64,000 bases of DNA, from assembly GCA_002973575.1 (NCBI GenBank), contig PVEQ01000001.1, forward strand, positions 186,001-250,000, given 5' to 3'. This document shows, one piece after another, positions 4,615 to 30,556 of this stretch; the first letter of the stretch is position 1, and each line of letters starts with the position of its first letter. Source of the DNA: Sediminibacterium magnilacihabitans (GTDB lineage Bacteria > Bacteroidota > Bacteroidia > Chitinophagales > Chitinophagaceae). Under the pieces are notes generated by a model. It saw only the letters and a program-made list of their open reading frames with translations, did no database searches and was not told where the DNA came from. The translations under genes were made by a program, and so were the position numbers.

Positions 4615-5013
4615 ATGGAAATCATCGGAAGAATTACCGCAGACGCCACGGTTAGCGAAACAAAAGCAGGGAAAAAAGTAGTGAACTTTTCCATCGCTAT
4701 TAATGACACTTACAAACCAAAAGGAAGCACAGAGGTACAAAAGATTACGACCTATGTAAACTGTTCGTACTGGATCAATCCGGGTGTATCGGCATATTTA
4801 ACCAAAGGCACATTGGTGGAATGTTTTGGCCGTATTGGAGCAAGTGCCTGGACAAACAAAGAAGGCGAAGTAAAAGCCAGCCTTACTTTCCATGTAAATA
4901 CCATTAAGCTGCATGGTAAATCAAACGGTGGCGGTACTGCACCGGCCCCGGTTGTGCCAATGAATACTGCACCAGCAGCAGCTTTAGAAGTTGCCGAAGA
5001 CCTACCATTTTAA
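4615..5013 (+). CDS. ssb: Single-stranded DNA-binding protein
   Basis: The 132-residue product has the OB fold of SSB: MEIIGRITADATVSETKAGKKVVNFSIAINDTYKP at the N-terminus, a central TTYVNCSYW strand and a GTLVECFGRIGASAW strand. The tail is Ala/Pro-rich and ends EVAEDLPF, the acidic tip with DLPF that recruits partner proteins. It is likely the element's own SSB, protecting the transferred single strand after conjugation. It is followed by a strong terminator at 5021-5050. Confidence 0.92.
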   Translation: MEIIGRITADATVSETKAGKKVVNFSIAINDTYKPKGSTEVQKITTYVNCSYWINPGVSAYLTKGTLVECFGRIGASAWTNKEGEVKASLTFHVNTIKLHGKSNGGGTAPAPVVPMNTAPAAALEVAEDLPF

Positions 5014-5020
5014 TCAATCG

Positions 5021-5050
5021 GGCATCCCGTCAAACTGCGGGATGCCTTTC
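5021..5050 (+). terminator. Rho-independent terminator after ssb
   Basis: A 9-bp perfect stem, GGCATCCCG (5021-5029) with CGGGATGCC (5038-5046), eight-base loop, followed by TTTC. It lies seven bases after the SSB stop codon. Confidence 0.85.
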
Positions 5051-5079
5051 ATCTTTTATCTAATTTAAAACTTACAATT

Positions 5080-6114
5080 ATGGCACACAATATCAATTTC
5101 AATGAGCTAACAGGTAAACACAGTTTCTTTTCAGTAAAAGAAAAAGCATGGCATGGTTTGGGACAAATTGTGCAGGATTATCCCAACAGTAAAGAAGCAT
5201 TGCAATTTGCAGGACTTGATTTTGAAGTATTGAAACGACCCAATACACACCGTTTAGATGATGGCACGGAAATCATTTCAAAAAACTCATTCTATACTTA
5301 CTGTCCCGACACCGGAGCCATCTTAGGCGACCGTTTAGGAAAAGATTATGAAGTAGTACAGAATGTGGATGCGTTCAGTTTCTTTGATGCTATTGTGGAT
5401 GGTGATGGCATTCAATACGAAACTGCCGGAGCATTGGGCAAAGGAGAAAAGATTTTTATTACTGCCAAACTTCCCGGTTATATTAAAGTAGGCAACGACG
5501 ATATGATAGAAAAATATTTATTCCTTACCACTTCGCATGATGGATTTGGCAGTATTATGGCGTCTTTTACGCCAACAAGAATTGTATGCAACAATACACT
5601 CAACGCCGCATTGAAAAACTGTAGTAATTCCATTAAAATCCGCCATACTGCAAATGCCAAAGAGCGGCTGGAAGAAGCCCATAAAGTAATGGGTATTTCT
5701 AACCAGCTTTCTGTACAGTTAGAAGGAATTTTTAACCAGTGGGCAAAGGTTCGTATTACAGATAAAGAAGTACAGAAACTCATACAATTGGCAATGGTTC
5801 CTAACAAGGAAGTATTGCAGAATATTGAAAAGGGTGAATTGGATGAACTGAGCACCTGCTTTAAAAATATGTGCGATGATGTGTATGTGTATAACATGAG
5901 CAGCCCATCACAGCAATATGAAACCACAAAAGGAACGGTGTTTGGAGCTTACAACGCTATCACTGGCTATTTTCAGAATGTAAGAAATTACAAAGATGAT
6001 GAAGCCAAAATGAAATCCTTATTGTACGGAGGCACGGCGCAATTAAGAACACAAAAAGCCTTTCAGCTTTGTGATGATTTTGTTAAGGGTGAAATTGCAG
6101 GGAGTTATAATTGA
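5080..6114 (+). CDS. DUF932 family phage/plasmid-like protein
   Basis: The 344-residue protein begins MAHNINFNELTGKHSFFSVKEKAWHGLGQIV, the signature opening of the DUF932 / phage-plasmid-like (TIGR03299-type) family, with SHDGFGSIMASFTPTRIVCNNTL in the middle. The family is common on plasmids, phages and integrative elements, often near ssb and radC genes as here; its function is not known. No membrane segment is visible. It has its own leader after the ssb terminator and a terminator behind it. Confidence 0.87.
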   Translation: MAHNINFNELTGKHSFFSVKEKAWHGLGQIVQDYPNSKEALQFAGLDFEVLKRPNTHRLDDGTEIISKNSFYTYCPDTGAILGDRLGKDYEVVQNVDAFSFFDAIVDGDGIQYETAGALGKGEKIFITAKLPGYIKVGNDDMIEKYLFLTTSHDGFGSIMASFTPTRIVCNNTLNAALKNCSNSIKIRHTANAKERLEEAHKVMGISNQLSVQLEGIFNQWAKVRITDKEVQKLIQLAMVPNKEVLQNIEKGELDELSTCFKNMCDDVYVYNMSSPSQQYETTKGTVFGAYNAITGYFQNVRNYKDDEAKMKSLLYGGTAQLRTQKAFQLCDDFVKGEIAGSYN

Positions 6115-7589: not shown

Positions 7590-8468
7590 ATGCACTATAC
7601 TAATCAAATAGAACCAGTCAGGAAAGCCCTGATAATCGGTAGCCCTGGCACAGAAGGTGTAGATTATTTATATAGTGCCTCAACAGATATCACGAATATC
7701 AAGAACCACCTGCTTTCTTCAAGAGGAGGCAAATGGCGGGACAATGAGATAAAAGTCCTGTGGAATCCGGGCATCGCTGAATTAGCTGCAATTGTTGAAA
7801 ACGCAGTTGCAGATTATCTTTTTGTTTATTTTGCTGGTCACGGATATGAAACTGCAAGCAGAGAAAGACGGATATGTTTTAATAATGCAGATGTTTCTGA
7901 TTTTTTTCTGCTGAACAGTAGTCCACGACAATTAGTAATTATTGATGCCTGCCGTGAAAAAGAATATCCTGCAATAAGCGGAATTCCCGGGGAAGAAGAA
8001 TGGTTGCCATTTGACGGTTATTATCCGGAAAGAGAGGCATTCGATAATTATATTTTGCAATCACCGGTTGGAAAGAAAATAGTTCATGCAACAAAAAGTG
8101 GCTTTGCATCATGGGAAGATGTAAACGGGCGAGGCGGCGTATTTACTACAAGTCTGATACTAAGTGTAAGAAAAATTCAATACAGTGTTCTTTATGCTCC
8201 GGTTAGTATAGAACAGTCACTTAAAAAAGCCAGGAAAATTATTAAACAGTCTGGTGATGAACAAGAACCAGAGATTGTTTATTCAAGCGGCAACTTGCAG
8301 GTGCCATTTGCTGTTTATATTAAGAGTGAAGCAAAAGCAGTTTATTCAAATTTCTCCAATCACAATAAGCCCCGAACTGTTTCAAGAAGAGAGTCATCAA
8401 ATTCCGGAGCTTTGGCCTTTTGTTTAATCTTACTTGGGATTGCTTTAATAGCTAACATCTCCGATTGA
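7590..8468 (+). CDS. Caspase-like (peptidase C14) protein with C-terminal membrane anchor
   Basis: The 292-residue protein starts with a caspase fold: RKALIIGSPG, YLYSASTDITNIKNHLL, then FVYFAGHG with catalytic His84 and VIIDACRE with catalytic Cys121. The middle resembles the p10 half (VHATKSGFASWED, GGVFTTSLI). Residues of about 275-290 form one hydrophobic helix followed by a short tail, so it is likely tethered to the membrane. Prokaryotic caspase homologues act as suicide effectors in several phage-defence systems, including some TIR-signalling ones; here it stands alone beside RadC and Wadjet, 12.5 kb from the TIR cluster. A role in defence is inference. Confidence 0.85.
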   Translation: MHYTNQIEPVRKALIIGSPGTEGVDYLYSASTDITNIKNHLLSSRGGKWRDNEIKVLWNPGIAELAAIVENAVADYLFVYFAGHGYETASRERRICFNNADVSDFFLLNSSPRQLVIIDACREKEYPAISGIPGEEEWLPFDGYYPEREAFDNYILQSPVGKKIVHATKSGFASWEDVNGRGGVFTTSLILSVRKIQYSVLYAPVSIEQSLKKARKIIKQSGDEQEPEIVYSSGNLQVPFAVYIKSEAKAVYSNFSNHNKPRTVSRRESSNSGALAFCLILLGIALIANISD

Positions 8469-8659: not shown

Positions 8660-9133
8660 ATGGAACAGTTAGTAATGCAATTTCCGGAATGGACAAGAGT
8701 AGCAGAAGTAGAATTGGTTTACAAAACAAAAGTAAAACCTTCTGAAAGACCAAAGATTGGAACGGTTAAAGAATGTTATGAATTGCTGAAAAAATTATGG
8801 AATGAAAACACCATTGAGATGCAGGAAGAATTTAAAGTAATATTGCTGAACAGAGCCAATAAAGTAATTGGTATCTATGAAGCATCAGCAGGTGGTTTAA
8901 CAGGCACTGTGGCCGACCCAAGATTGATATTAGCAGCCGCTATTAAATCTTTATCGGTTTCAATCATACTTTCCCACAATCACCCGTCAGGAAATCTAAA
9001 ACCAAGCCGGGCGGATGAAGAATTAACGCAGAAAATAAAAACAGCCGCCGCCTATCACGATATCAGAGTGATAGACCACATGATTATCAGTAGCGAAGGC
9101 TATTACAGTTTTGCTGATGAGGGGTTGTTATAA
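8660..9133 (+). CDS. RadC-family JAB-domain protein
   Basis: The 157-residue protein has the JAB/MPN metalloprotease-like core: SHNHPSG at residues 105-111 with Asp119 ten residues on (LKPSRADEE), plus the ASAGGLTGTVADPRLILAAAI segment of RadC. The N-terminal helix-hairpin-helix domain of chromosomal RadC is absent, which is the usual form on plasmids and integrative elements. Zinc binding is expected; its activity in the cell is unproved, and the old DNA-repair label rests on weak evidence. It lies 56 bp before jetA and could share transcription with it. Confidence 0.9.
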   Translation: MEQLVMQFPEWTRVAEVELVYKTKVKPSERPKIGTVKECYELLKKLWNENTIEMQEEFKVILLNRANKVIGIYEASAGGLTGTVADPRLILAAAIKSLSVSIILSHNHPSGNLKPSRADEELTQKIKTAAAYHDIRVIDHMIISSEGYYSFADEGLL

Positions 9134-9189: not shown

Positions 9190-10650
9190 ATGACCTTTGA
9201 GGAAATACTTTTACACTTTAAAACGGCTAAACCGCTGCAGCTTTTACGGGCTAAAAATGCACCGTTTATCATTTCATTTTTCTACAAAGTATTTTCTGAT
9301 GCCAATGTTACCACTATTTCAAACAGTGAGTTAAGAAGCAAGCTGGAAGGTTATATGGAGGAGCTTTCGTATGAGGAAAAAGATGATGAGTTAGATGCAG
9401 AAACACTATTCGATGATTTTTCGGTAAGAGCTGCTCAATATATTGACAAATGGAGTAACAGTGGGTTTCTAAGCAAATATCCAAATGATGATGGCGAAGA
9501 TTTGCATGAGCTGACAACCGATACCAGAAAAGTATTAAAGTGGCTGGGCGATTTAGAAAAGAGAAGTCATGTAGGAACCAACAGCAAGTTCAGAGATATT
9601 TTTTTCAAGCTTCAGAAAATAATTGAACAAACGAATGAAAATGTTGAAACGAGGATTGAAGAACTCAATAAGAAAAAATGGGAGATTGAAAATGAAATAA
9701 ATCTTTTGAAAAATGGTAAGAAACCTTCGCTCTTTGATGAAACAGAGATTAAGGAACAGTTTTACGATTTAAATAAAATGGCAAGGGAACTGCTGTCAGA
9801 CTTTAGCGAAGTAGAGCAAAATTTTGAGCAGATAAGAAAAGATATACAACGAAAATATACAGAGAAAGATATAGCTAAAGGAACATTACTGGTCTTTGCT
9901 CTCGATGCACTTGATGAGATTGACCAAAAACCACAGGGAAAAAGTTTTAAAGCATTTTGGGAGTTTTTGATGGATGAAAAACGACAACAGGAATTTACAC
10001 AACTCACCGAACGGCTGTACCATCTTTTAAGTGAACATAATATTGATTACAACAACGACCGTTTTTTAAAACACCTCAAACGCTACCTCCATGTATCTGG
10101 CCGTAAAGTGATTGATTCGAACAGGAAGTTGAGTGAGAAAATCAGTCGTGTACTTTCAGAAAAAAATATGCTGGAAAGACGAAGAGCAATGGAATTGATA
10201 GGTGAAATACGACAGATGGCATACAGCCTGATTGATACTAAAATTAAAGAGGATGAATTTATTACTATAGAAGACGAGCCTTATGTCAATTTGTTCGACC
10301 GATGGGAACCCGGTGAGGAAAAAGATGATATAAATAATATTCTTTTCCCTGACGGAAGTATGGCAGATGAAGATGCGGATTTCAAAACACTTTTCGACCA
10401 GTTTACTATTGATAAGAAAAAATTGCAGCTACGAATTGATGCTATGCTGGAGGAAAAAGGCCAGGTAACTCTTAAAGAAGTAGTGGAAGAATATGGCCTT
10501 GAAAATGGACTGAGTGAAATTGTGGGTTATTTTTCTATCGGAGCTTCAGGTTCTCACCAGATAATTGAAGGAACCAAAGAACCAATTTTGATTGGCAACA
10601 GGATAGTAAATGTTCCGCTGGTTATTTATATAAAGCCATTAACAAAATAG
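9190..10650 (+). CDS. jetA: Wadjet component JetA (DUF3375)
   Basis: The 486-residue protein begins MTFEEILLHFKTAKPLQLLRAKNAPFIISFFYKVF, the typical opening of DUF3375, and is largely helical with coiled coil around residues 150-230. JetA is the kleisin-like subunit that bridges the JetC heads in Wadjet, an SMC-type complex that recognises and cleaves small circular plasmids. It is the first gene of a compact jetABCD operon (one base to jetB). Confidence 0.93.
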   Translation: MTFEEILLHFKTAKPLQLLRAKNAPFIISFFYKVFSDANVTTISNSELRSKLEGYMEELSYEEKDDELDAETLFDDFSVRAAQYIDKWSNSGFLSKYPNDDGEDLHELTTDTRKVLKWLGDLEKRSHVGTNSKFRDIFFKLQKIIEQTNENVETRIEELNKKKWEIENEINLLKNGKKPSLFDETEIKEQFYDLNKMARELLSDFSEVEQNFEQIRKDIQRKYTEKDIAKGTLLVFALDALDEIDQKPQGKSFKAFWEFLMDEKRQQEFTQLTERLYHLLSEHNIDYNNDRFLKHLKRYLHVSGRKVIDSNRKLSEKISRVLSEKNMLERRRAMELIGEIRQMAYSLIDTKIKEDEFITIEDEPYVNLFDRWEPGEEKDDINNILFPDGSMADEDADFKTLFDQFTIDKKKLQLRIDAMLEEKGQVTLKEVVEEYGLENGLSEIVGYFSIGASGSHQIIEGTKEPILIGNRIVNVPLVIYIKPLTK

Positions 10651-10651
10651 T

Positions 10652-11251
10652 ATGGAAGAAAAAATTGTAAGGGCGCCATTCGCTGCCGTCATAATTAAAT
10701 TGCTCCAAGGGCCAGTATATGCTGATGACAAAAATATCTGGCGGGAGCTGATGGGCTGGCAATCGGCCATACAGGAGTATTTTGGTAAAATAGGAATTGA
10801 TTTAGTTATTAATGAACAGGATGGGTTTGCAAGAGTACTCCAACCCGAGGCTGATGAGCATGACGATAATCCTTTACCCCGTCTCATGAAGAAGCAAACG
10901 CTGAATTATGAAGCCACTTTACTGGCTGTAATTCTTCGGGAGGGGCTTGAGGAATTTGATATAAAAAGTGATGGCAATAAGTTTTACCTGACACAGAAGG
11001 AAATTAAAGAACGGATAGAACTTTTTTATAAGGAACAGACAAATAAAAGTAAGCTCTGGAAAGATTTATCAAAACCAATAACAAGTTTGTTGAATATTGG
11101 CATACTGAAATTGAACCGGGAAGATATTGCCAATAAGGACAATAACAAGTATGAAGTAAAGCGGATTATCAAAGCTTTTATCAGTAATGAAAAATTGGAA
11201 GAAATAAAGAATAAGTTAAACAACTATGTCAACCCTGTTCAGCAACAATAA
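10652..11251 (+). CDS. jetB: Wadjet component JetB (DUF4194)
   Basis: The 199-residue protein matches DUF4194: a winged-helix KITE-like subunit (IRAPFAAVIIKLLQGPVY near the start; TLLAVILREGLEEF in the middle; SLLNIGILKL towards the end). JetB binds the JetA kleisin in the Wadjet complex. Its start is one base after jetA and its last 26 bases overlap jetC, so translation is coupled. Confidence 0.92.
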   Translation: MEEKIVRAPFAAVIIKLLQGPVYADDKNIWRELMGWQSAIQEYFGKIGIDLVINEQDGFARVLQPEADEHDDNPLPRLMKKQTLNYEATLLAVILREGLEEFDIKSDGNKFYLTQKEIKERIELFYKEQTNKSKLWKDLSKPITSLLNIGILKLNREDIANKDNNKYEVKRIIKAFISNEKLEEIKNKLNNYVNPVQQQ

Positions 11252-14200
11252 TTCAGATAATGGTTACCGGTTAAGATACCTTGAGGTGTTTAATTGGGGA
11301 ACATTTAACGGTAAGGTTTACCGATTGCAGCCAGATGGCCGCACTTCGTTGTTAACAGGAGCGAATGGCAGCGGCAAAACCACATTAATTGATGCATTGC
11401 TGACAATCCTGGTTCCAACTAATAAAAGATTCTACAATCAATCATCAGGTGCAGAATCCAAAAAAGAAAGAGATGAAAATTCTTATTTCTGGGGTTACTA
11501 TGGAAAAATATTTTCCGAACTGGAGGAGAAATCAAAAACAGAACAACTGAGGACTAAATCAGATAATCCTTATTCAGTATTGCTTGCCTGTTTTCAAAAT
11601 TCCGGCACACAACACACCATCACTCTGGTTCAGGTTCGTTGGTTTAGTAATGGTGGTTTGCAAAAAATATTTATTGTTTCCCCTTATCCGCTAAATATCA
11701 ATGAGCATTTTGGAAAAGACCATTTTGACCTGAAAGGCGACTGGAAGAAAAAACTGCTGAAGCAATTTGCAAAGACAGAGATCTATAACAGCTTCAAAGA
11801 ATACGCTACCCGGTTTAGCGAATTGTTCGGATTAAGGGATAAAGCCCTTTCGCTTTTCAGCCAGACAGTAGGAATTAAAGTGCTGGGCGATTTAACCAAT
11901 TTTATACGGCAGGAGATGCTGGAGGAAGCAGATGCGGAGGAACAATTCAAAAGCCTTTATAATCATTACAGTGATTTGCTTATTAGTCATAAAGCTATTC
12001 AGAAGGACGAAAAACAGCTTGAATTACTGGAGCCAGTGATAGCTAACAAAAACAAACTGGAGACACTTCGTAACAATAAGCAAAAACTTGAATTCATTGA
12101 AGAACAAATGCCTTTTTACCTGGGCAAAATTGAGTACGATTTATTGGAGAAAGAGGTAGAACGTTTGGAACTTGAAATAGAGATTGCTAAAAAAGATAAG
12201 GAACTGGTTTCTTCATTGGTAACAAGGCTGGATAAAGATAAAGAGCACCTGATAACTCAAAGAGCGGCCTTGAATATTGACAGCCAGATTTCGTTGCTGA
12301 ATAAGGATATAGATACCGAAACAGATAAACGAATACGAAAAACTGAAACGGCTGGCAGCTATAGTAAACTTTGTGCAGAGTTAAAACTTGATACAGATAT
12401 TGATGAAGCGGTATTCAGGAAAAACTATGCTAAAGTTATGGAGCTGAATACCACTATTCCTGCTGAAGCCGAAAAGCTCTCTGAAAAACGATATGGATTT
12501 AAGATTGAACAGGATTCCATATCCAAAAAAATAGAAGACCTTCAACAACAGATAACTTCCTATTTGTCCCGAAAAAACCGAATACCAGATGATTTGATAA
12601 CTGCCCGAAAAAGACTGGTTGATATTTTAGAAACTACAGAAGACGAGATTCCTTTTATAGGCGAGCTAATTAAGGTGAAGGCAACAGAGCAATTGTGGGA
12701 GGATTCAATAGAAAAACTGTTGCACAATTTTGCCATGCAATTGTTGGTGCCTGAAAAATTCAGTAAGGCTGCCAATCATTTTATTTATAATAATGATATG
12801 CAGACAAAATTAGTATATCATAAAATTGACAGAAGGCCGTCTAACAGTATTGTTCGATGGCCGGCAGATGATGACGCAATAGTGAATAAACTTGACTTAA
12901 AAGATTCCTCTTATAAAAGCTGGCTGGAAACTACACTGCTTGACAGATTTAATTACTATTGCACGGACGACATTGAGGTATTTTATGGTTCACAAAAAGC
13001 AATCACTTCAAATGGCCTGATGAGGAATATAAACCGCCATGAAAAAGATGACCGTCCGGGAAGATGGAATAAATCAAAATACCGTCTTGGTGGAGATAAT
13101 AGAACAATTGTACAATACCTGCAGCAACAGAAATATGATGAAGAGCAACAATATGCTAAGTTGACAGACGAAATAAAAAATCTTACGCCCCTTATTACAG
13201 CCCTAAAATCAAAGGAACAAATCATAACAAACCTCATAGCAATTAAAAACTATGATGACATAAACTGGGCTCAACATGCAGAAAGAATCAATGAATTAAA
13301 TAAGCAGATAGCAGATTTAAAAAAGTCTTCTGACAAATACGATTTAATAGTAAGTCAGATTGAAGAAGTTGAAAAGCAATTAAAGAAAGAAACCGACAAA
13401 AAGGAGGCTTTGGGAATTAAAGTCAGCAAGCTGGATGATGAGTATAATGACAAAAATTTTCGGAAACTTAAAATCAACTTTGAAGACCTGAAAGAAGATG
13501 GCGAACAAGCCATCATTCAATTCCTGAACGAGATAGACACTTCGCCATCAAATATCCAAACCCTGGCACAGTTTGATGTGATGGTTACCCAAGCTGGAAT
13601 TAAGTTGAAATCAAGACAAAAGGCAGCAGCGGAGGCAGTAAATACTTTGGAAAAAGAAACGATTGTGCTGATAGCTGCCTTTGTGCATCCCGGCGAAAAA
13701 ATCACCACTGAATTTCCAAACTGGAGTGGTGATGTCATCAATATTAAACCTGACCTTTCAGGCCTTGGAGACCTTGAAGATTTGCATAAAACCATACAAA
13801 CACAACGACTGGTTGAACATAAACGACGGTTCAGGGATTACATGGATAAAAGTATGCTGGATGCACTCACCAGCTACAGGGCATGGCTCAATAATGAATT
13901 GAGCAGAATTGAGGATATGATAGAGGAACTGAATGTGCCACTGAAGAAGATAACCTTCAATCAGAACCCTGATACTTATTTGCAATTGGAATGCCGCCCT
14001 ATAAGAGGCGAAAATGAGATTAATATTTTCAGGAATCAGTTAAATGCTGCCATACCCGGAACACTGGATTTTGCGATACAAAAAGACGACAGCTACAGGG
14101 AACAGGTATTTTATAAGATAAAGGAATTAATTACAGAATTACAAAAGGAAGAGAACTGGCGAAGAAAAGTAACCGATGTAAGAAATTGGTTGTTATTTAG

Positions 14201-14624
14201 TGCCAGGGAACATTCAGTAGTGGACGACAAGCCGGGTCAATATCACGATAATACTGCCAGCTATTCAGGAGGACAAAAGGCACAGTTTACTTACGCCATT
14301 TTAGGGGCGGCGATAGCGCATCAATTTGGCATATTTCAGCAGGGTAAGCAACATAAAAGTCTTCGCTTTATTACAGTTGATGAAGCATTCAGCAAACTTG
14401 ACCCGGAGAAAAGCCAGTTCCTGATGAAGTTTTGCGACCAATTAAACTTACAGATATTGGTGGTAACACCGCTTGATAAAATCAACATTGCAGAACCCTA
14501 TATTCATGCCGTGCACTACGTGGAAATAAAAAACAAGAAAAGTTCCATTTTGTATAACCTTACGATGGAACAGTATTACGAGAAAAAAGAGAGTTTTAAA
14601 CAGTTAGCTGAAACAAGAGAATGA
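11226..14624 (+). CDS. jetC: Wadjet component JetC, SMC-like ATPase
   Basis: The 1132-residue protein has a Walker A motif GANGSGKT at residues 45-52, a long coiled coil in two arms around a hinge-like centre (about residues 480-640), an ABC signature YSGGQKAQF near residue 1013 and a Walker B FITVDEAFSKLD near residue 1047. This is the SbcC/MukB-like motor that extrudes DNA loops in Wadjet. All ATPase motifs are intact and the length is normal. It overlaps jetB by 26 bases and jetD by four. Confidence 0.95.
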   Translation: MSTLFSNNNSDNGYRLRYLEVFNWGTFNGKVYRLQPDGRTSLLTGANGSGKTTLIDALLTILVPTNKRFYNQSSGAESKKERDENSYFWGYYGKIFSELEEKSKTEQLRTKSDNPYSVLLACFQNSGTQHTITLVQVRWFSNGGLQKIFIVSPYPLNINEHFGKDHFDLKGDWKKKLLKQFAKTEIYNSFKEYATRFSELFGLRDKALSLFSQTVGIKVLGDLTNFIRQEMLEEADAEEQFKSLYNHYSDLLISHKAIQKDEKQLELLEPVIANKNKLETLRNNKQKLEFIEEQMPFYLGKIEYDLLEKEVERLELEIEIAKKDKELVSSLVTRLDKDKEHLITQRAALNIDSQISLLNKDIDTETDKRIRKTETAGSYSKLCAELKLDTDIDEAVFRKNYAKVMELNTTIPAEAEKLSEKRYGFKIEQDSISKKIEDLQQQITSYLSRKNRIPDDLITARKRLVDILETTEDEIPFIGELIKVKATEQLWEDSIEKLLHNFAMQLLVPEKFSKAANHFIYNNDMQTKLVYHKIDRRPSNSIVRWPADDDAIVNKLDLKDSSYKSWLETTLLDRFNYYCTDDIEVFYGSQKAITSNGLMRNINRHEKDDRPGRWNKSKYRLGGDNRTIVQYLQQQKYDEEQQYAKLTDEIKNLTPLITALKSKEQIITNLIAIKNYDDINWAQHAERINELNKQIADLKKSSDKYDLIVSQIEEVEKQLKKETDKKEALGIKVSKLDDEYNDKNFRKLKINFEDLKEDGEQAIIQFLNEIDTSPSNIQTLAQFDVMVTQAGIKLKSRQKAAAEAVNTLEKETIVLIAAFVHPGEKITTEFPNWSGDVINIKPDLSGLGDLEDLHKTIQTQRLVEHKRRFRDYMDKSMLDALTSYRAWLNNELSRIEDMIEELNVPLKKITFNQNPDTYLQLECRPIRGENEINIFRNQLNAAIPGTLDFAIQKDDSYREQVFYKIKELITELQKEENWRRKVTDVRNWLLFSAREHSVVDDKPGQYHDNTASYSGGQKAQFTYAILGAAIAHQFGIFQQGKQHKSLRFITVDEAFSKLDPEKSQFLMKFCDQLNLQILVVTPLDKINIAEPYIHAVHYVEIKNKKSSILYNLTMEQYYEKKESFKQLAETRE

Positions 14625-15766
14625 TAACACCCAATGAACTTTTTGAGAAATCGGATAAGCTGTTTAATAAAGTAATCACGGCTGTTCTGCAAGAGGAAAA
14701 TATTTTCCCTTTGGTCATACCTTCTAATAAGAAATTATCAGGTACAAATTTCAGCGAATTGAAAGCCTCTTTAGTACCGCTTTACCAGCATTCAAAGCAG
14801 GCCAAAGGGAAAGGTTACACTATTGAATGGAAGGAGAAAGCAGTTGATGGGACTAAGCAAAAAATTCCTTCAAAAATCGTTTTTGAAACCCTGGATGACT
14901 ACCTTTTTTACACAAAGCGAATAAAAGACTATGAAGCGATTAATAATGTCTTTGAAAAATTAACATCTTCGTTCTCTTTTTTGTCTGGTTGGGCAAAAGA
15001 GAATGTTTCTTTTTTACTTACCCAGGCGGAAAGAATGGATGATTTTATTAAAGTGTGTAACTATTTTCACAACAATAAACCGCCACATAAGTTATACTTA
15101 AGGGAATTGCCAATTGAGGTTCATTCTAAGTTTATCGAAGATAACTCCGCTGCTTTAAAAAGAATACTGGATGTACTGCTCCCCGTTGAGTGGATAAACA
15201 AAAGCGAAACTGATTTTTCCAGTCGTTACTACATCAAAAAACCTAACATATACGCTCAGATAAGAGTTCTGGACGATACTTTGAAATCAGTAATCGGATA
15301 TGATGAATTGGCATTGACATTAGATGATTCCGCATTGCTTAACTGGCAACCTGAGAAAGTATTCATCATTGAAAACAGGGCTTGTTTTCTTTCATTTCCC
15401 AAAGTAAAAAATGCTGTAGCGATATTTGGCGAGGGGTTTAAAAGCAGGGTTAGCAAGCATATTCCCTGGCTGTCAAAGGCAGAATTATTTTGCTGGTTTG
15501 ACCTTGATGCGGCTGGATTTGAAATGCTGAATATCATCCGGCAATACTACCCGCAAGCAAAAAATCTTTTAATGGATGATAAAACTTACAATCAATTCAA
15601 ACAGTTTTCAGTCACTTCTACATACAGAAAACTACAATTAGATAAACTTACTGCTGATGAATTGAACCTGTATGAATTTCTGCAAGCGAATAATAAAAGG
15701 CTTGAACAGGAGCGAATAACTAACAATTATATTTTAGAAAGGCTTCATGAAACAAAACTGCAATAA
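14621..15766 (+). CDS. jetD: Wadjet component JetD, Toprim nuclease (DUF3322/DUF2220)
   Basis: The 381-residue protein has an N-terminal DUF3322 region and a C-terminal DUF2220 Toprim domain: the glutamate in FIIENRACFLSFP and the DLDAAGFEML acidic pair near residue 293 provide the metal site. JetD is the nuclease that cuts plasmid DNA after loop extrusion stalls. The ATGA overlap with jetC ends the operon. With intact catalytic residues in JetC and JetD the system is predicted to be active. Confidence 0.94.
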   Translation: MITPNELFEKSDKLFNKVITAVLQEENIFPLVIPSNKKLSGTNFSELKASLVPLYQHSKQAKGKGYTIEWKEKAVDGTKQKIPSKIVFETLDDYLFYTKRIKDYEAINNVFEKLTSSFSFLSGWAKENVSFLLTQAERMDDFIKVCNYFHNNKPPHKLYLRELPIEVHSKFIEDNSAALKRILDVLLPVEWINKSETDFSSRYYIKKPNIYAQIRVLDDTLKSVIGYDELALTLDDSALLNWQPEKVFIIENRACFLSFPKVKNAVAIFGEGFKSRVSKHIPWLSKAELFCWFDLDAAGFEMLNIIRQYYPQAKNLLMDDKTYNQFKQFSVTSTYRKLQLDKLTADELNLYEFLQANNKRLEQERITNNYILERLHETKLQ

Positions 15767-16047: not shown

Positions 16048-16228
16048 GCGGCGAAAATAATCATTTCATAATTAATGAATTCTTATATGCTGCCTGACCA
16101 AAAATTAGCCATGTAAATAACAAATACTGGTATAAATTTTACACCCGTTTTATTATGAATTTGCAAATGCCAATAACATTTTCAACGGATAGATTTAATA
16201 AGGGATTAATGTGCCCGGTCTTGCACAT

Positions 16229-16268
16229 GGCAAGATGTACAAACGTTATACGTTTGGGGCATCTTGCC
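16229..16268. other. oriT-like nested palindrome upstream of the mobilization genes
   Basis: GGCAAGATG (16229-16237) pairs with CATCTTGCC (16260-16268), and nested inside CAAACGT (16240-16246) pairs with ACGTTTG (16250-16256) around TAT. The short palindrome ACTCCGGAGT follows downstream. It lies 48 bp before MobC, within the 270-bp gap that holds no gene, which is the usual place for the origin of transfer of a MobC/MobB pair. Confidence 0.65.
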
Positions 16269-16316
16269 CTTCACTCCGGAGTCGCTTCGGGGTATTGAAA
16301 CAGAAAACTTAAAACC

Positions 16317-16712
16317 ATGAAGAAGTTGGAAAGTGAAGTGAGGAAAAAAATGGTAGTGGTAAGGATGAATGACACGGAGTTTAATCAGCTTGAAAAGCTC
16401 CAGCAAAAAACTACTGAAAAAGACACCAGCAGTTACCTGCGGAAAGTAGCACTGCAAAAACCCGTTACCGTAAAGTACAGAAACGAAAGTGCAGATGATT
16501 TTTTATTAGACATGCTGAATCTCAAAAAAGAACTCAATGCTATTGGAAACAATTTTAACCAGGCAGTACACAAACTTCATATCCTCGATAAGATCCCGGA
16601 GTTCAGGGTTTGGGTGCAGCAATATGATGGTTTGCAAAAAATATTAATAAGCAAAGTGGAAGAAATAAAATTAAGGATGAATCAACTCTATGAGCAATGG
16701 TTGCAAAAATAA
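16317..16712 (+). CDS. MobC-type relaxosome accessory protein
   Basis: The 131-residue protein has a ribbon-helix-helix start (KKMVVVRMNDTEFNQLEKLQQKTTEKDTSSYLRKVAL) followed by the conserved LKKELNAIGNNFNQAVHKLH helix of MobC-family mobilization proteins. It would bind oriT and help the relaxase open the strands. Its end overlaps the relaxase start by 16 bases. In Bacteroidetes literature the names MobA/MobC are used inconsistently for this protein, so no symbol is given. Confidence 0.88.
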   Translation: MKKLESEVRKKMVVVRMNDTEFNQLEKLQQKTTEKDTSSYLRKVALQKPVTVKYRNESADDFLLDMLNLKKELNAIGNNFNQAVHKLHILDKIPEFRVWVQQYDGLQKILISKVEEIKLRMNQLYEQWLQK

Positions 16713-17977
16713 CCATACCGAAAAGTATTGAAGCTGCACTCAATTACAACGAAAAGAAAGTGCATAAAGGGAATGCTGTTTGTCTTTATGCTGCCAACTA
16801 TCTAAAGGATGCTAAGGAGATGAACTTTTATCAAAGGCTTGCAGGCTTTGAAAGGCTAAATAGTTTGAATGAAAGGGCAACGACAAAAACACTGCATGTA
16901 TCACTCAATTTTGACCCATCTGAAAAATTACCTGAAAGCAAACTCCAGCAGATTGCGTCAGACTATATGCAAAGAATTGGCTTTGGTGACCAACCTTATC
17001 TCGTTTACAAACATGAAGATGCCGGGCATCCTCACATTCACATTGTAAGCACTACCATCAAAGCAGATGGCAGCAGGATTAACACCCATAACATCGGCAA
17101 GAACCAATCTGAAAAGGCAAGGAAAGAAATTGAAAGGCAATATGGGTTGATAAGAGCGGAAAGACAGCAGGAATTAAGGAATCCCGGCATTAAACCTGTT
17201 GATGCAGAAAAAGTGGTTTATGGAAAATCAGAAACCAAGAGAAGTATTTCAAATGCAGTTAGTGCCATTTTCAGTCAGTATAAGTTTACTTCTCTGCCGG
17301 AGTTTAATGCCGCACTCAAACAATTCAATGTAATTGCTGACAGGGGAAAAGAAGAAGGAAGGATTTATAAAAATCGTGGACTGGTTTACCGGGTGATGGA
17401 TGCTGGTGGAAATAAAGTGGGTGTTCCCATCAAAGCAAGTTCAATTTCCTGCAAACCAACGCTGGATAATTTGGAAGCCAAATTTGCAGCAAATGAAACA
17501 GAAAAAGAAAACCTGAAACCTTATGTAAAAGCAAAGCTTGATGAATGTATTGCCCAGTCACCAGCAAACATGAAAGATTTGATTGAGAATTTAAAACAAA
17601 AAAATATCTACACGGTTCTTCGCCAAAATGCTGAAGGAAGATTATATGGAATTACGTTTGTTGACAACCAGAACAAATGTGTTTTTAACGGTAGTGATTT
17701 AGGCAAGGGCTACAGTGCCGCTGCTATTCAAAGCAAGTTGTCAACTCCTGCAATTGATAAAACAATTAAGCAGGACGATAAAGAAAGCAGTCATTCATCT
17801 GGTTCAGTGGGTAAAGAAATGGCTATTACAAAGGACAAAGAAAAAAATATGACAGTTTCTGATTCAAAAGAAAATATTTTGGATGTGCTGCTTACTGCAA
17901 AAGAGCAATTCGGTAATACTCCATATTCGCTGCTGAAAAAGAAACGAAAGAAAAAACGGAAGAATCCAAATTCATAA
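16697..17977 (+). CDS. mobB: Relaxase / mobilization nuclease (MobB type)
   Basis: The 426-residue protein has the relaxase domain with the metal-binding triad H-x-H-x-H at residues 111-115 (AGHPHIHIVST), preceded by the LHVSLNF strand and the LVYKHEDAG segment. A tyrosine near the N-terminus (for example Tyr17 or Tyr31) would make the covalent DNA link. The tail is strongly basic (KKKRKKKRKNPNS). It nicks oriT and pilots the strand into the recipient. It overlaps MobC and is 15 bp from the coupling protein. Confidence 0.92.
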   Translation: MVAKITIPKSIEAALNYNEKKVHKGNAVCLYAANYLKDAKEMNFYQRLAGFERLNSLNERATTKTLHVSLNFDPSEKLPESKLQQIASDYMQRIGFGDQPYLVYKHEDAGHPHIHIVSTTIKADGSRINTHNIGKNQSEKARKEIERQYGLIRAERQQELRNPGIKPVDAEKVVYGKSETKRSISNAVSAIFSQYKFTSLPEFNAALKQFNVIADRGKEEGRIYKNRGLVYRVMDAGGNKVGVPIKASSISCKPTLDNLEAKFAANETEKENLKPYVKAKLDECIAQSPANMKDLIENLKQKNIYTVLRQNAEGRLYGITFVDNQNKCVFNGSDLGKGYSAAAIQSKLSTPAIDKTIKQDDKESSHSSGSVGKEMAITKDKEKNMTVSDSKENILDVLLTAKEQFGNTPYSLLKKKRKKKRKNPNS

Positions 17978-17992
17978 TTCAAAAAATAGTGT

Positions 17993-19951
17993 ATGTCAGT
18001 TACAGGAGAGAACGAACAGGGGCTGCGGAAGATAATTGACCTTACCAGGTTTGCCAGCATCTTTATTTTGTTGTTGCATTTTTATTATTTCTGTTACCGG
18101 GCTTTTGAGCATTGGGAAATTGCCAGCACTATTACAGACAGGCTAATGAAAAATATCAGCCAGACAGGTTTGTTCAACGGAGTGTTTGTTTCAAAATTTA
18201 TTGCTATCGGTTTATTAATAATTTCTTTGCTGGGAGCACAAGGAAAAAAGGATGAAAAGATAAACAAACGAAGTATTGCCGCTTACTTGCTGATTGGGTT
18301 ATTGCTTTTCTTTGGCAGTAGTTGGTTCTTTCAATTGAATGAAGCTATTGAAACTATTGCTGTGGTCTATATGGTTGTTACAGGTATTGGCTTTCTGCTG
18401 ATATTAGCAGGGGGCAATTTATTAAGCCGTTTAATCAAACTCAATCTTTCTGATGATGTCTTCAATTCATTGAATGAAACCTTCCCGCAGGAAGAACGTT
18501 TACTTACAAACGAATACTCTATTAATCTGCCTGCTAAATACAATTTGAAACGGCAGGCAAGAAAGAGTTGGATAAACATCATTAACCCATTTAGAGGCTT
18601 GTTGGTTATCGGTAGCCCTGGTGCCGGTAAAAGCTGGTTTGTTATCCAGCATATCATTAAGCAGCACATTGAAAAGGGTTTTGCGATGTTTGTGTACGAT
18701 TTTAAGTACGATGATTTAAGCAGGATTGTTTACAACTGGCTGCAGCAAAATAAACATCGCTATAGTGTAAAGCCGTCTTTCTACGTTATCAACTTTGATA
18801 ACCTCTCAGTATCACACCGCTGCAATCCATTAGATCCGTCCACAATGAATGATATAACCGATGCAACAGAAAGTGCGAGGACAATTCTACTGGGATTAAA
18901 CCGCGAATGGATAAACAAGCAAGGTGACTTCTTTGTGGAATCACCCATCAACTTTGTTACAGCTATTATTTGGTTTTTGAGAAAATATGCTGAAGGCAAA
19001 TATTGCACCCTGCCGCATGTAATAGAACTAATGCAGGCAGAATATGATGAATTATTTCCGGTACTAAATACCCAACCAGAAATTGAAGTGCTGGTAAATC
19101 CGTTCATCACAGCCTATCAAAACGATGCTATGGAGCAATTGGAAGGACAAGTTGCATCTGCAAAAATTGGTATGGCAAGATTAGCTTCACCGCAATTGTA
19201 TTGGGTGTTATCAGGCAATGATTTTACTTTAGACATTAACAATCCTAAGCATCCCAAAATTGTTTGTGTTGGAAACAATCCGGAGAAGCAACAGATTTAT
19301 GGAGCAGTATTATCACTTTACATTTCAAGATTGGTGAGACAGGTAAACAAAAAAGGAATGCATAAATGCAGTTTGGTGTTTGATGAGTTCCCCACCATCT
19401 ACTTTAATAACATTGATAGCCTCATTGCAACAGCCCGTAGTAACAAAGTTGCCACCACATTAGCCATGCAGGATTTTAGCCAACTCAAAAAAGACTATGG
19501 AAAAGAACAAGCGGATGTAATTGTAAACATCACAGGCAATATTATCAGCGGACAAGTAATGGGTGAAACTTCCAAACTCTTATCAGAACGTTTCGGAAAA
19601 ATTATGCAGGACCGCCAAAGTGTTTCTGTAAACCGCACCGATACATCTATCAGCCATTCCAAACAGTTGGATAGTGCCATACCCGCCAGTAAAATTGCAG
19701 CCCTTTCTTCCGGTGAGTTTGTGGGGTTAGTTGCCGACAACCCCGATGAAAAGATAAAACTCAAAATGTTTCATGCCGAGATTGTCAATGATGCTGAAAA
19801 GCTAAATGCTGAAGTAGCCGCCTACAAAAATATCCCGGTCGTTTCCACTGTAACCCAACAGCAGGTAATGGATAATTTTTACCAGGTAAAGATGGAGGTA
19901 AAGCGATTAATTGGAGAGGAAGTGGAGAAATTAAAGGCAACGAAAGCATAA
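17993..19951 (+). CDS. TraG/VirD4-type coupling ATPase (YWFCY-domain mobilization protein)
   Basis: The 652-residue protein has an N-terminal membrane region of about four helices with the YYFCY variant of the YWFCY motif, then a VirD4/TraG ATPase: Walker A IGSPGAGKS around residue 206, Walker B LVFDEFPT, and the TraM-recognition-type region TARSNKVATTLAMQDFSQL. It links the relaxase-DNA complex to a type IV secretion channel. No other transfer-channel genes are in the window, so either they lie to the left or the element uses a helper's channel. Confidence 0.92.
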   Translation: MSVTGENEQGLRKIIDLTRFASIFILLLHFYYFCYRAFEHWEIASTITDRLMKNISQTGLFNGVFVSKFIAIGLLIISLLGAQGKKDEKINKRSIAAYLLIGLLLFFGSSWFFQLNEAIETIAVVYMVVTGIGFLLILAGGNLLSRLIKLNLSDDVFNSLNETFPQEERLLTNEYSINLPAKYNLKRQARKSWINIINPFRGLLVIGSPGAGKSWFVIQHIIKQHIEKGFAMFVYDFKYDDLSRIVYNWLQQNKHRYSVKPSFYVINFDNLSVSHRCNPLDPSTMNDITDATESARTILLGLNREWINKQGDFFVESPINFVTAIIWFLRKYAEGKYCTLPHVIELMQAEYDELFPVLNTQPEIEVLVNPFITAYQNDAMEQLEGQVASAKIGMARLASPQLYWVLSGNDFTLDINNPKHPKIVCVGNNPEKQQIYGAVLSLYISRLVRQVNKKGMHKCSLVFDEFPTIYFNNIDSLIATARSNKVATTLAMQDFSQLKKDYGKEQADVIVNITGNIISGQVMGETSKLLSERFGKIMQDRQSVSVNRTDTSISHSKQLDSAIPASKIAALSSGEFVGLVADNPDEKIKLKMFHAEIVNDAEKLNAEVAAYKNIPVVSTVTQQQVMDNFYQVKMEVKRLIGEEVEKLKATKA

Positions 19952-20049
19952 TCTTCTATTAGGTTTTAAGCTTAAAATCAATAACTTATAATTATTTTTT
20001 AAACTTGATGCAAATAAATTGAATAAACTCTCTAATTTTATACAGTATT

Positions 20050-20062
20050 ATACATTTTGTAT
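20050..20062. promoter_or_regulatory. LexA-type operator overlapping the start of the repressor gene
   Basis: ATACA-TTT-TGTAT is a perfect dyad of 13 bp ending one base before the ATG at 20064. Its size and position fit autoregulation by the LexA-like protein encoded next. Further ATACA-like half sites lie just upstream (around 20038-20044). Confidence 0.6.
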
Positions 20063-20063
20063 T

Positions 20064-20690
20064 ATGAGTGAAGAACAATTATCAGCTAAAGCAAAAGAGG
20101 CATTAAAGCATATCCGCAATTGGATAATGAAATACAGCCTTACACCCTCTGTAAGGGAGCTAATGCAGGTAATGGGCTACAAATCCCCCAGGTCTGCTAT
20201 GCTACTAATAACAGAACTTGAAGAAAATGGGTTCTTAGAAAGAAAAGCAGACGGCAGTTACAAAATGGTAAAAGACCTGTCAACCAATGAGACCGCCAGA
20301 ACCGTAGCTGTTCCGTTGGTTGGCAGCATATCCTGTGGGGGCGCCTTGCTGGCAGAAGAAAATGTGGAGGCCTATATTCCGATATCAACTTCGCTGGTTA
20401 AAACAGGAAATAAGTATTTTCTCCTTCGGGCAGTTGGTGATTCAATGAACGAAGCCGGCATTCAACCAGGGGATTTGGTCTTGGTAAGGCAACAAAATGT
20501 AGCTGAAAATGGGCAAAGGGTCGTTGCATTGATTGATGACGAAGCAACGCTGAAAGAATTTCAGCACAAAGGAAATGTGGTGGCATTGGTGCCGAGGTCA
20601 TCAAACCCCAAACATAAGCCGATAATCCTTGAAAGGGATTTTCAGGTTCAGGGAGTAATCATCACATCAATTTCTAACGTTAATTTTTAA
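20064..20690 (+). CDS. LexA/UmuD-like self-cleaving repressor
   Basis: The ATG at 20064 is chosen because MSEEQLSAKAKEALKHIRNW aligns with the LexA helix-turn-helix start; the in-frame upstream extension is AT-rich and reads through the operator. The N-terminal domain is LexA-type (residues 1-70). The C-terminal S24 peptidase has the scissile Cys91-Gly92 in SISCGGALLAEEN, Ser127 in AVGDSMNEAGI and Lys164 in DDEATLKEF. Chromosomal LexA uses Ala-Gly; Cys-Gly is seen in UmuD-like proteins. It probably controls element genes in response to DNA damage. DUF2188 follows at 11 bp, and the TIR cluster after that. Confidence 0.9.
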   Translation: MSEEQLSAKAKEALKHIRNWIMKYSLTPSVRELMQVMGYKSPRSAMLLITELEENGFLERKADGSYKMVKDLSTNETARTVAVPLVGSISCGGALLAEENVEAYIPISTSLVKTGNKYFLLRAVGDSMNEAGIQPGDLVLVRQQNVAENGQRVVALIDDEATLKEFQHKGNVVALVPRSSNPKHKPIILERDFQVQGVIITSISNVNF

Positions 20691-20991: not shown

Positions 20992-21534
20992 ATGGGAATA
21001 CTTTCCAAAGCAAGACTCACTGAGTTAACCGAAACAAAACTTGGATACCGAACATTTAGTGACCGAATCACTGAGGCGAAAAGCGACAGCAGATATCTGG
21101 CCACAACGACTATATTTTTATCACACAGTCATGATGATAAAGAAGAAGTGAAAAGGGCTGTGGTTTTTCTGCGAAGCATCGGCGTAAGAGTTTATATTGA
21201 TTGGCTTGACCCCTCAATGCCGCCATTTACCAGTGCTGAAACAGCCGATAAAATCAAGAAAAAAATAAAGGAGTGCAGTAAGTTTATTCTCCTTGCTACC
21301 AATAGCGCCATTGCGTCTAAGTGGTGCAATTGGGAACTGGGATTTGGTGATGCACAGAAATACATTGACAGAATTGCCTTATTTCCACTTTCTGAAAACT
21401 CCGGCACATGGAACGGCGCCGAGTATTTAAGGATTTATCCAAGAATTGAAGAAAGCAATTACAACAATGAATATTACAAATTAATATATCCTGATGGGAA
21501 AGAAGTGTCCGTCTCCGACTGGCTTAAACTCTAA
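20992..21534 (+). CDS. TIR-domain protein 1 (Thoeris-like sensor)
   Basis: The 180-residue protein is a single TIR domain: TIFLSHSHDD at residues 40-49, the YIDWLDPSMPPFTSAETADKI region, and SKWCNWELGFGD with the likely catalytic Glu115. It is a paralogue of the gene at 24255-24860 (shared YID, MP, TSAET, WCNWELG, LRIYP/MRIYH blocks). In Thoeris, TIR proteins sense phage and make an ADP-ribose signal from NAD+. It is 18 bp upstream of thsA, so it probably feeds that effector. Confidence 0.88.
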   Translation: MGILSKARLTELTETKLGYRTFSDRITEAKSDSRYLATTTIFLSHSHDDKEEVKRAVVFLRSIGVRVYIDWLDPSMPPFTSAETADKIKKKIKECSKFILLATNSAIASKWCNWELGFGDAQKYIDRIALFPLSENSGTWNGAEYLRIYPRIEESNYNNEYYKLIYPDGKEVSVSDWLKL

Positions 21535-21552
21535 CTGAACAATTATACTACT

Positions 21553-22992
21553 ATGACATTTTCAAAAGAAGTGGAAGCATTTATAAAAGATTTTGTAAAT
21601 GACCTTTTAGAAAATAATGTTGCGATATTTAGTGGTGCCGGTATGTCAATTCCTGCTGGCTTTGTAAGCTGGCCGGATTTGCTCCGTGAAATTGCTGATG
21701 AACTTGGTTTGAATGTGGATAAAGAGCATGACCTTATTTCCCTGGCGCAGTATCATGTAAACGAAAACCGTGGAAAAGCCAAAATAAACCGGAAAATACT
21801 GGAAGAGTTTACAGAAGAAGCTGAAATGACGGAAAACCACCGCATATTGGCTCGACTGCCCATCACAACGTTTTGGACCACTAATTACGATACACTAATT
21901 GAAGACTCGTTAAAAGCTGCCAATAAAATTGTTGATGTAAAACATGATGTAAAACAACTCGCCGTTACAAGACCAAAACGGGATGTAGTGGTGTATAAAA
22001 TGCATGGAGATGTTGCACACCCTGCAGATGCTATCTTAACAAAGGAGCAGTATGAATCATACCATATTTCTCATCGCCCCTTTGTAACTGCATTGAGTGG
22101 CGATTTAATATCCAAAACATTTTTGTTTATTGGGTTTAGTTTCACCGACCCCAATCTTGATTATGTTCTCAGCCGGTTAAACATACAATTTGGTGAAAAT
22201 ACCCGGCAACACTATTGCTTCATAAAGCGAAAAACGAAAGCAGCGAAAGAAGATGAAGAACTACACAAATACGGAGTAAGAAAACAGGAGTTAATGATTA
22301 ATGATTTAAAGCGGTATAAGATTAAAGCCCTCCTGATTGAAGAATATGGTGACATCACCGCCATATTGAAAGAGATTGAACGCAGGTATCGTAAGAAAAC
22401 AGTTTTTATTTCCGGCAGTGCAGAAGAATATGGAACCTGGGACAGAAATAAAGCTCAGAGTTTTATTCATCAGTTAAGTAAGAAAATAGTTGGTTCAGGG
22501 TTCACCATTGTCAATGGTTTTGGTTGGGGTGTTGGCAGTGCGGTTATCAATGGTGCACTGGAAATGATTTATGAACGGCCTGATAAACACTCAGAAGACC
22601 AGTTAGTCATGCGGCCATTTCCACAATTTGAAACCGGGGCTAAAAAGTTACCTGAACTATGGGATGAATACCGTTATAAAATGATTTCGTTGGCTGGTAT
22701 TGGGATTTTCATTTTTGGTAATAAAAAAGATAAGGATGGAAAATTAATAGAGGCCAACGGGGTGAAACGGGAATTTGATATCGCTGTTGAAAAAGGCCTC
22801 ATTCCAATACCCGTTGGCGCAACAGGGTATGTTAGCAAGATAATATCTGAAGCGGTTTTAAAGGATGCTGAGAGGTATTATCCCAAACATAAAGAGATAA
22901 TACCTGTAATTGAGGAACTGGCTGACGAAAAACTGGAACCAGATACTATCATTGAAAAAATCATAAAAATTATTCAAATAATAAACAAGTAA
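21553..22992 (+). CDS. thsA: Thoeris effector ThsA, SIR2-SLOG NADase
   Basis: The 479-residue protein has an N-terminal SIR2 domain with FSGAGMS (GAGMS at 28-32), TTNYD with Asn111 and KMHGD with His151; these match in place the catalytic Asn/His of characterised ThsA. Residues of about 283-479 form a SLOG domain (VFISGSAEEYGTW, VNGFGWGVGSAVINGAL, GIGIFIFGNK), which in ThsA binds the cyclic ADP-ribose isomer made by ThsB and switches on NAD+ depletion. Domain order and length are those of type I Thoeris. ThsB genes follow at three bases. Confidence 0.93.
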   Translation: MTFSKEVEAFIKDFVNDLLENNVAIFSGAGMSIPAGFVSWPDLLREIADELGLNVDKEHDLISLAQYHVNENRGKAKINRKILEEFTEEAEMTENHRILARLPITTFWTTNYDTLIEDSLKAANKIVDVKHDVKQLAVTRPKRDVVVYKMHGDVAHPADAILTKEQYESYHISHRPFVTALSGDLISKTFLFIGFSFTDPNLDYVLSRLNIQFGENTRQHYCFIKRKTKAAKEDEELHKYGVRKQELMINDLKRYKIKALLIEEYGDITAILKEIERRYRKKTVFISGSAEEYGTWDRNKAQSFIHQLSKKIVGSGFTIVNGFGWGVGSAVINGALEMIYERPDKHSEDQLVMRPFPQFETGAKKLPELWDEYRYKMISLAGIGIFIFGNKKDKDGKLIEANGVKREFDIAVEKGLIPIPVGATGYVSKIISEAVLKDAERYYPKHKEIIPVIEELADEKLEPDTIIEKIIKIIQIINK

Positions 22993-22995
22993 ACT

Positions 22996-23487
22996 ATGGC
23001 ACGGAGAGCATTTTTTAGTTTTCATTACGAGAATGATGTATGGCGGGCAAATATTGTTCGTAACAGTTGGGTAACAAAGGAAGACAGGGAGGCAGCAGGC
23101 TTTGTTGATGCGGCTGATTTTGAAGAAGTGAAAAAAGGCGGAGATGCCGCTATTAAAAAGTGGATTGACAACCAACTTTTAAATACCTCAGTTACGGTTG
23201 TGCTGATTGGTACTGATACCAGCAACCGTCCCTATGTACAATATGAGTTGCAAAAGAGTTATTCAAGGGGAAATGGCATGTTGGGTATCTATATTCATAA
23301 GCTCAAAGACAAAAACGGAAACACCTCTTCAAAAGGTGATAATATGTTTGGCGAAATTGGCAAGGATAGTTCTGGAAACTCTGTTTATTTCAGCAGCGGC
23401 TATACCTGTTATGACTGGGTGGATGATGACGGTTACAACAACCTTGGTAAATGGATTGAGGAAGCAGCTAAAAAAGCAGGTAAGTAA
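22996..23487 (+). CDS. thsB: ThsB-type TIR-like protein A (DUF1863)
   Basis: The 163-residue protein has the MTH538-like TIR fold of ThsB: RRAFFSFHYENDVWRANIVRNSW at the start, LNTSVTVVLIGTDTSNRPYVQYELQKS with the likely catalytic Glu84, then RGNGMLGIYIHKLKDKNG. It starts three bases after thsA and its stop overlaps the start of a second ThsB paralogue by one base. In Thoeris this protein recognises phage and makes the signal for ThsA. Confidence 0.9.
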   Translation: MARRAFFSFHYENDVWRANIVRNSWVTKEDREAAGFVDAADFEEVKKGGDAAIKKWIDNQLLNTSVTVVLIGTDTSNRPYVQYELQKSYSRGNGMLGIYIHKLKDKNGNTSSKGDNMFGEIGKDSSGNSVYFSSGYTCYDWVDDDGYNNLGKWIEEAAKKAGK

Positions 23488-24110: not shown

Positions 24111-24254
24111 ATTGCCGGCAAGTATAACCACTTAATGAGATTTTACTTTTTTGCAAAAGTCCTTAATACTAAGTACAAAATTTCCTGATATTTCGTGCAA
24201 ATGTAACAGATAATATAACTTTTGTAAATTGCTAACCACAGCCCCAAACCATCC

Positions 24255-24860: not shown

Positions 24861-24864
24861 AAAA

Positions 24865-26618: not shown

Positions 26619-26625
26619 ATAACTT

Positions 26626-30410: not shown

Positions 30411-30556
30411 ACTTCTCAATTTTATGGTTTTTAAACCGCTTAAAATCAGGCAATAAAAAAGACCTGCTGAATTCTTATGCAATCATAAGATTCGCAAGTC
30501 TTGTCAAATCCGGTATAAAATGGTTCGAGAATTGTACAGTTGGGTGCACCTGAGGG

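Follow-up and report, generated by a model that had tools for sequence, protein, structure and literature searches.

A predicted type I Wadjet system as probable modular cargo of a 141.8-kb integrative and conjugative element of Sediminibacterium magnilacihabitans

Introduction

Wadjet systems have already been described on mobile DNA, and the parts of the literature available to us place them on Tn7-like transposons (34 JetD; PMC8649781), on Pseudomonas PAPI-2 islands described as often holding proteins linked to integrative and conjugative elements (ICEs) (PMC12629846), and on circular plasmids that differ in size, where whole operons are noted (PMC10586767, a 2023 review). The accessible passages of the same review state that ways to evade Wadjet almost certainly exist and name none. 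How mobile elements can carry a destroyer of small circular DNA is the question addressed here with a 64,000-nucleotide stretch of the Sediminibacterium magnilacihabitans genome (C1:186001–250000 of a 66-contig, 4.04-Mb assembly; hereafter the window, to which all coordinates without the prefix C1 refer), in which jetABCD genes occupy positions 9190–15766. In our judgement the best explanation, and a probable one, is that a complete type I Wadjet is modular cargo of a 141,814-bp ICE and guards both host and ICE, the ICE itself being spared by its size, its integration and the manner of its entry. Intact genes, defined ICE ends, conjugation genes and a recurrent layout among relatives support this reading; the action of the system and the escape of its carrier we infer from known Wadjets.

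Results

The four genes are read from the forward strand and comprise jetA (9190–10650), the DUF3375 subunit of type I Wadjet as assigned by Pfam, PADLOC and comparison with solved chains; jetB (10652–11251), a DUF4194/MksE-like subunit assigned by Pfam and PADLOC; jetC (11226–14624), an SMC/MukB-like ATPase assigned by Pfam, PADLOC and motifs; and jetD (14621–15766), a toprim nuclease assigned by Pfam, PADLOC and catalytic residues. The Pfam domains across the operon include DUF3375, DUF4194/MksE, SbcC_Walker_B among others, and JetD_C/DUF3322, and the PADLOC matches were JetA1 (2e-133), JetB1 (5e-64), JetC1 (0) and JetD1 (2e-125). JetC carries the Walker A motif GANGSGKT at residue 45, the signature SGGQ at 1014 and a Walker B-type DE at 1052–1053, while the toprim residues E251, D294 and D296 of JetD are all present, E251 lining up with residue 248 in the solved chain 8q72, JetD(E248A). 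All four listed solved JetC sequences matched the window JetC at 2e-30 or lower (best 9e-58), and the match of JetA to solved JetA was weak (best 1.6e-07). When compared with four loci, the Jet genes showed nonsynonymous change of 0.046–0.247 and synonymous sites near or at saturation; this pattern fits purifying selection, the saturation precluding an exact ratio. Given the four-gene order, the domain families and the intact ATPase motifs of JetC and toprim residues of JetD, the operon is, as far as its sequence tells, a type I Wadjet (JetABCD) in which every gene is present and intact, and the complete Wadjet that a first-pass annotation had placed at 9190–15766 is confirmed for all four genes and their motifs.

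The carrier extends well beyond the window. It occupies C1:74736–216549 (141,814 bp) with its right end at window position 30549, and C1 has a block of low GC between about 75 and 216.5 kb (GC 38.4% inside the element vs 45.8% in the flanks). The left end (attL) is marked by a tRNA-Leu(CAG) at C1:74651–74735, beside a large serine recombinase of 534 aa (C1:74640–76244), the ICE integrase. At the other end, attR (30522–30549, forward strand) comprises the last 28 bases of the ICE with the core GCAC at its end and host DNA beyond. This right-end sequence is common to genomes G010 and G214, where a tRNA-Leu again marks the left side; right after GCAC the three sequences diverge. The congener G010 bears a 120,825-bp Wadjet ICE at the same site, and its host right flank, about 4 kb beyond its own right end, is 97–98% identical to that of the window; the G214 element at tRNA-Leu measures 78,905 bp. 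A hairpin-like stretch and a T run follow attR in the window and, judged by eye, a hairpin-like stretch directly follows the tRNA in nine congener loci, as expected if the element had split the tRNA from its terminator. A 12-mer repeat search of the ICE ends found no att, the core being only GCAC.

Pfam recognises TraG, TraJ, TraM, DUF4133, DUF4134 and DUF4138 on the ICE, the last three of which we take to be TraF, TraE and TraN, respectively; for several small Tra candidates Pfam gave no match. Following Wadjet on the forward strand are an oriT-like conserved inverted-repeat block (16207–16277) upstream of mobC, a MobC/NikA-like accessory protein (16317–16712; NCBIfam Bacteroid_MobA, below its cut-off), a MobA/VirD2-type relaxase (16697–17977; NCBIfam Bacteroid_MobB, below its cut-off) and a coupling protein (17993–19951; YWFCY and T4SS-DNA_transf, with NCBIfam Bacteroid_MobC above its cut-off). 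The inverted-repeat block stands upstream of MobC in all 14 aligned sequences, namely the window, 12 other loci and a second element of the same genome (element 2), and it is this conservation that suggests a putative oriT. The relaxase and coupling genes which had been annotated beside Wadjet lie, together with the MobC-like gene, at 16317–19951, and the annotated oriT finds support as an oriT-like repeat block. With att sites at a chromosomal target, an integrase, and relaxase, coupling protein and type IV secretion system genes, the carrier is, by its gene content and ends, an integrative and conjugative element, which the first-pass annotation had entertained as a possibility. The 30-kb, merely mobilizable half that it described is instead the right end of the 141,814-bp ICE, with the integrase and Tra genes outside the window; the full element size that it proposed to determine is given by the same coordinates.

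A fixed genomic island had been named as the case that would speak against a mobile carrier. To survey the occupancy of the integration site, 147 genomes of the genus were searched, 132 of which matched the tRNA query, and 30 tRNA-Leu loci, our own included, were read. A related integrase lay beside tRNA-Leu in four of the 30 loci (alignment of at least 171 residues; one at 52% identity, cut by the contig end). The remaining 26 lacked one, at least three of them (L176, L183 and L184) being uninformative with fewer than 250 bases after the tRNA. The site is therefore variably occupied, and this patchiness disfavours a fixed island. The GDSL flank gene, used as a synteny marker, gave a weak match in just one of 39 relatives, and the left-flank protein was matched in 13 of 40 other genomes; 12 of their 13 loci were scanned, and none of the 12 showed a tRNA-Leu.

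Wadjet fills a defence slot between the oriT-like block and a RadC-like JAB protein (8660–9133, forward strand) that forms the left border. In element 2, the same radC–mobC slot holds a type IIG restriction enzyme instead of Wadjet, thereby marking the slot as a site for defence genes in these ICEs. Element 2 lies on the same contig at about C1:332–460 kb, shares its backbone with the Wadjet ICE and has a tyrosine integrase, with tRNA-Asp at the far end; a 10-bp tRNA repeat sets its length at about 128.2 kb. None of the four Jet genes of the Wadjet ICE was matched there.

A JetC scan of genome contigs yielded 39 loci, 11 of which showed the order RadC–JetABCD–MobC–relaxase–coupling protein as in the window, and JetD was full length (377–386 aa) in all 11. 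Relatives with this layout occur in the named strains Flavihumibacter sp. ZG627, Lacibacter cauensis and Hydrotalea flava. Among other loci, L077 has RadC and its sequence stops short of MobC, L066 is a contig of 4.65 kb, Wadjet follows the coupling protein in L074 and precedes SSB in L076, SSB and DUF932 stand at a greater distance in L070, and none of the other queried genes was found near JetC in L071–L073. Coupling proteins, TraG and JetA were also mapped in 394 family genomes, and 39 of the 99 listed JetA places, picked by eye as those sharing a contig with a coupling protein and those most similar, were compared with the listed coupling proteins. Among the matches listed, JetA lay within 30 kb of a coupling protein in 19 of the 39, and every full-length JetA of at least 84% identity (11 of 11) lay within 11 kb of one; two partial JetA of 89–90% identity came from contigs for which no coupling protein was listed. 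The TraG match of G261, a genome of the same family as that of the window (Chitinophagaceae), coincides in contig number, in position and in score with that of G056 (L061, Flavihumibacter sp. ZG627), so that named loci and family genomes share members and cannot be counted as independent samples.

Besides the radC–mobC slot, two other positions hold clearly different Wadjets. Divergent complete JetABCD sets of 25–34% identity follow the coupling protein in G384, G190 and G214:C1 and precede SSB in G394, and a set of 58–74% identity precedes SSB in G255, beside a GmrSD gene. Several independent acquisitions are thereby indicated, and we infer that this ICE family has gained Wadjet repeatedly. 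In the 12 slot loci (the window and 11 others), JetA and JetC distances were decoupled from those of the backbone (rho 0.06–0.20), while relaxase and coupling protein distances correlated with each other at 0.76 and those of JetD and relaxase moderately (rho 0.46); since the pairs of loci are not independent, the p values of these correlations were disregarded. The decoupling of JetA and JetC indicates that the Jet module is exchanged between ICEs.

The delimited Wadjet carriers measure 141.8, 120.8 and 78.9 kb at tRNA-Leu and, from the positions of 14-, 17- and 20-bp repeats, 118.2, 91.4 and 84.8 kb at tRNA-Asp. A broken jetA was considered for the 78.9-kb ICE, as the G214:C6 match contains one TAA, and was rejected because L075, the named copy, is full length (483 vs 486 aa). 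According to the accessible passages of one review, Wadjet targets lie below 50–100 kb and circles above about 100 kb escape (PMC10586767). The available excerpts of a further paper cite the same 50–100 kb limit and report that, in Bacillota, plasmids sharing a cell with Wadjet show an apparent size cut-off near 40 kb, doubtful exceptions being seen in 2 of 1,442 genomes (PMC12287153). For a family-wide comparison, spans between coupling protein and TraG on the same contig were taken among the matches listed, pairs on different contigs being left out. Across all 77 pairs the median span was 96.9 kb with Wadjet (n = 13) against 49.4 kb without (n = 64; one-sided p 3e-5). In PLSDB, JetA was found in seven of 72,556 records, six of which are at least 186 kb; the seventh is a 59.8-kb record, linear according to its deposit, in which the DUF3375 annotation is split into two overlapping pieces. 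For JetD there were 11 records, one of them circular, of 42 kb and without a JetA match. These records are too few for a statistical test.

The remaining cargo of the ICE includes further candidate defence genes. The backbone of the ICE contributes SSB and DUF932 genes at 4615–6114 (forward strand), with a GmrSD/HEC-05-like gene at 1636–3333 to their left and an AIPR/AbiU-like gene at 27306–29138; other ICEs of the family also carry the GmrSD gene. Just upstream of radC lies a caspase-like (Peptidase_C14) gene (7590–8468), relatives of which are found upstream of radC in L062, L064 and G255. A LexA-type repressor (20019–20690, forward strand; above the NCBIfam cut-off) directly follows the coupling protein, and L065 has one too. 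In the window it is succeeded by a Thoeris-type block (20992–27294, forward strand) of one ThsA, six ThsB/TIR proteins and one SLOG protein, an arrangement of many sensors per single effector. A YhcG-type PDDEXK nuclease (29310–30482, reverse strand) stands at the right end of the ICE, and a similar gene (31% identity) is found at an end of element 2. Outside the window, C1:99000–186600 is a long cargo region with apparent metal-transport genes, judged from protein starts only. Element 2 further encodes, at C1:334612–337053, a protein of 505 aa matched by an E1-E2-type model of PADLOC (8e-18) and two adjoining small proteins without matches, possibly a ubiquitin-like defence operon.

Discussion

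As known Wadjets suggest, JetABC would extrude small circular DNA completely and JetD would then cut it, an action that would protect the host and the ICE against plasmids and circular mobile elements of small size. The ICE itself would escape for three reasons: its 142-kb circle exceeds the reported 50–100 kb limit, it spends most of its time integrated, and a new recipient would hold no Jet proteins when the DNA arrives single-stranded.

Escape by size, as the first-pass annotation had suggested, can explain the survival of the 142-kb ICE, which is above the published limit. Several observations limit the case for size, and the size statistics do not decide it: intact Wadjets reside on carriers of 78.9, 84.8 and 91.4 kb, inside the 50–100 kb grey range; the published limits were measured on Wadjets other than that of the window; and among close ICEs (coupling protein of at least 75% identity, matches listed) the 11 spans with Wadjet showed no significant excess over the seven without (one-sided p 0.12). 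Moreover, the median span was 96,879 bp for the carriers of GmrSD (n = 9) and for those of Wadjet (n = 13) alike. This control separates the readings poorly because seven of the nine also carry Wadjet; the two that do not have spans of 55.3 and 83.7 kb. The proposal that Wadjet carriers are larger because of Wadjet was not upheld, given the p value of 0.12 among close ICEs and the overlapping control.

A serious competitor, though held tentatively and at somewhat less than an even chance, is that Wadjet is ordinary host-protective cargo with no special tie to ICE size or transfer: large ICEs would carry more of everything, and near-constant integration would make an adaptation for self-escape unnecessary. 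The company of Thoeris, AbiU-like and GmrSD-like genes that Wadjet keeps on this ICE, the type IIG enzyme in the slot of element 2, the exchange of the Jet module independently of the backbone and, as a weak control in view of its overlap, the shared median span of GmrSD and Wadjet carriers all agree with it, while the repeated acquisition of Wadjet at several positions of the same ICE family points to some advantage, which need not be particular to the ICE. It is rather doubtful that timing, the other route named in the first-pass annotation, or regulation replaces size, with jetABCD silent or not yet made while the circle exists in donor or recipient. Intact Wadjets on ICEs down to 78.9 kb would suit such an escape, as would the entry of conjugating DNA into a recipient without Jet proteins; the ICE also encodes the LexA-type repressor, though nothing ties LexA to jetABCD, and a 78.9-kb element may still exceed the limit of its own Wadjet. 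An unlikely extension is that Wadjet is the weapon of the ICE against small circles riding its conjugation machinery, such as mobilizable plasmids and small integrative mobilizable elements, and sets a lower ICE size of about 75 kb, with element size and loop-extrusion range matched within the family.

It is very improbable that JetABC serves mainly in DNA organisation in a condensin-like manner, with defence secondary. Such a role is brought to mind by 20 Chitinophaga loci with JetABC (JetC of 46–48% identity) and no JetD match adjoining, JetD_C being found in only two of those 20 genomes; yet the window JetD keeps its catalytic residues, and JetD is of full length throughout the 11 slot loci. 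The Chitinophaga loci (L078–L089, L091, L092 and L094–L099, of which L078 ends soon after jetC) perhaps represent a nuclease-free, condensin-like relative of Wadjet; in the four that were read (L079, L080, L084 and L097), JetABC is flanked by a bestrophin-like gene on one side and by cydAB-like genes on the other, these names being based solely on the beginnings of the proteins.

Our preferred reading remains that of modular, protective cargo on an ICE spared by size, integration and entry. While Wadjet on mobile DNA has been published, its repeated acquisition by one ICE family and the natural size series are new; in the literature searched (titles, abstract starts and passages, a scope to which subscription papers mostly did not belong), apparently no paper deals with the escape of an ICE from Wadjet. 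Intact Wadjets on carriers of 79 to 142 kb constitute a natural series in which escape by size is directly testable, with relatives available in named strains.

Compared with the type I Wadjets of solved chains (8q72, 8as8, 8dk1-3), the window copy has the same gene order, domain families, ATPase motifs and toprim residues, and differs in its location on an ICE. The best match of the window JetD is the MksG chain of structure 8b7f (4.9e-14), a likeness to MksBEFG from which the locus is distinguished by the assignment of all four genes to type I Jet models by PADLOC. With the CTnDOT-type conjugative transposons of Bacteroidetes the ICE has in common TraG, TraJ, TraM, DUF4133/4134/4138 and MobA/B/C-type mobilisation genes. 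The CTnDOT integrase is of the tyrosine type, and the ICE of the window differs by its large serine integrase at tRNA-Leu, its 142-kb length and its defence and other cargo. Like the Wadjets of Tn7-like transposons, PAPI-2 islands and circular plasmids, the system described here is probably carried as mobile-DNA cargo, and what sets it apart from these is a delimited ICE family with apparently repeated acquisition and a measured series of sizes.

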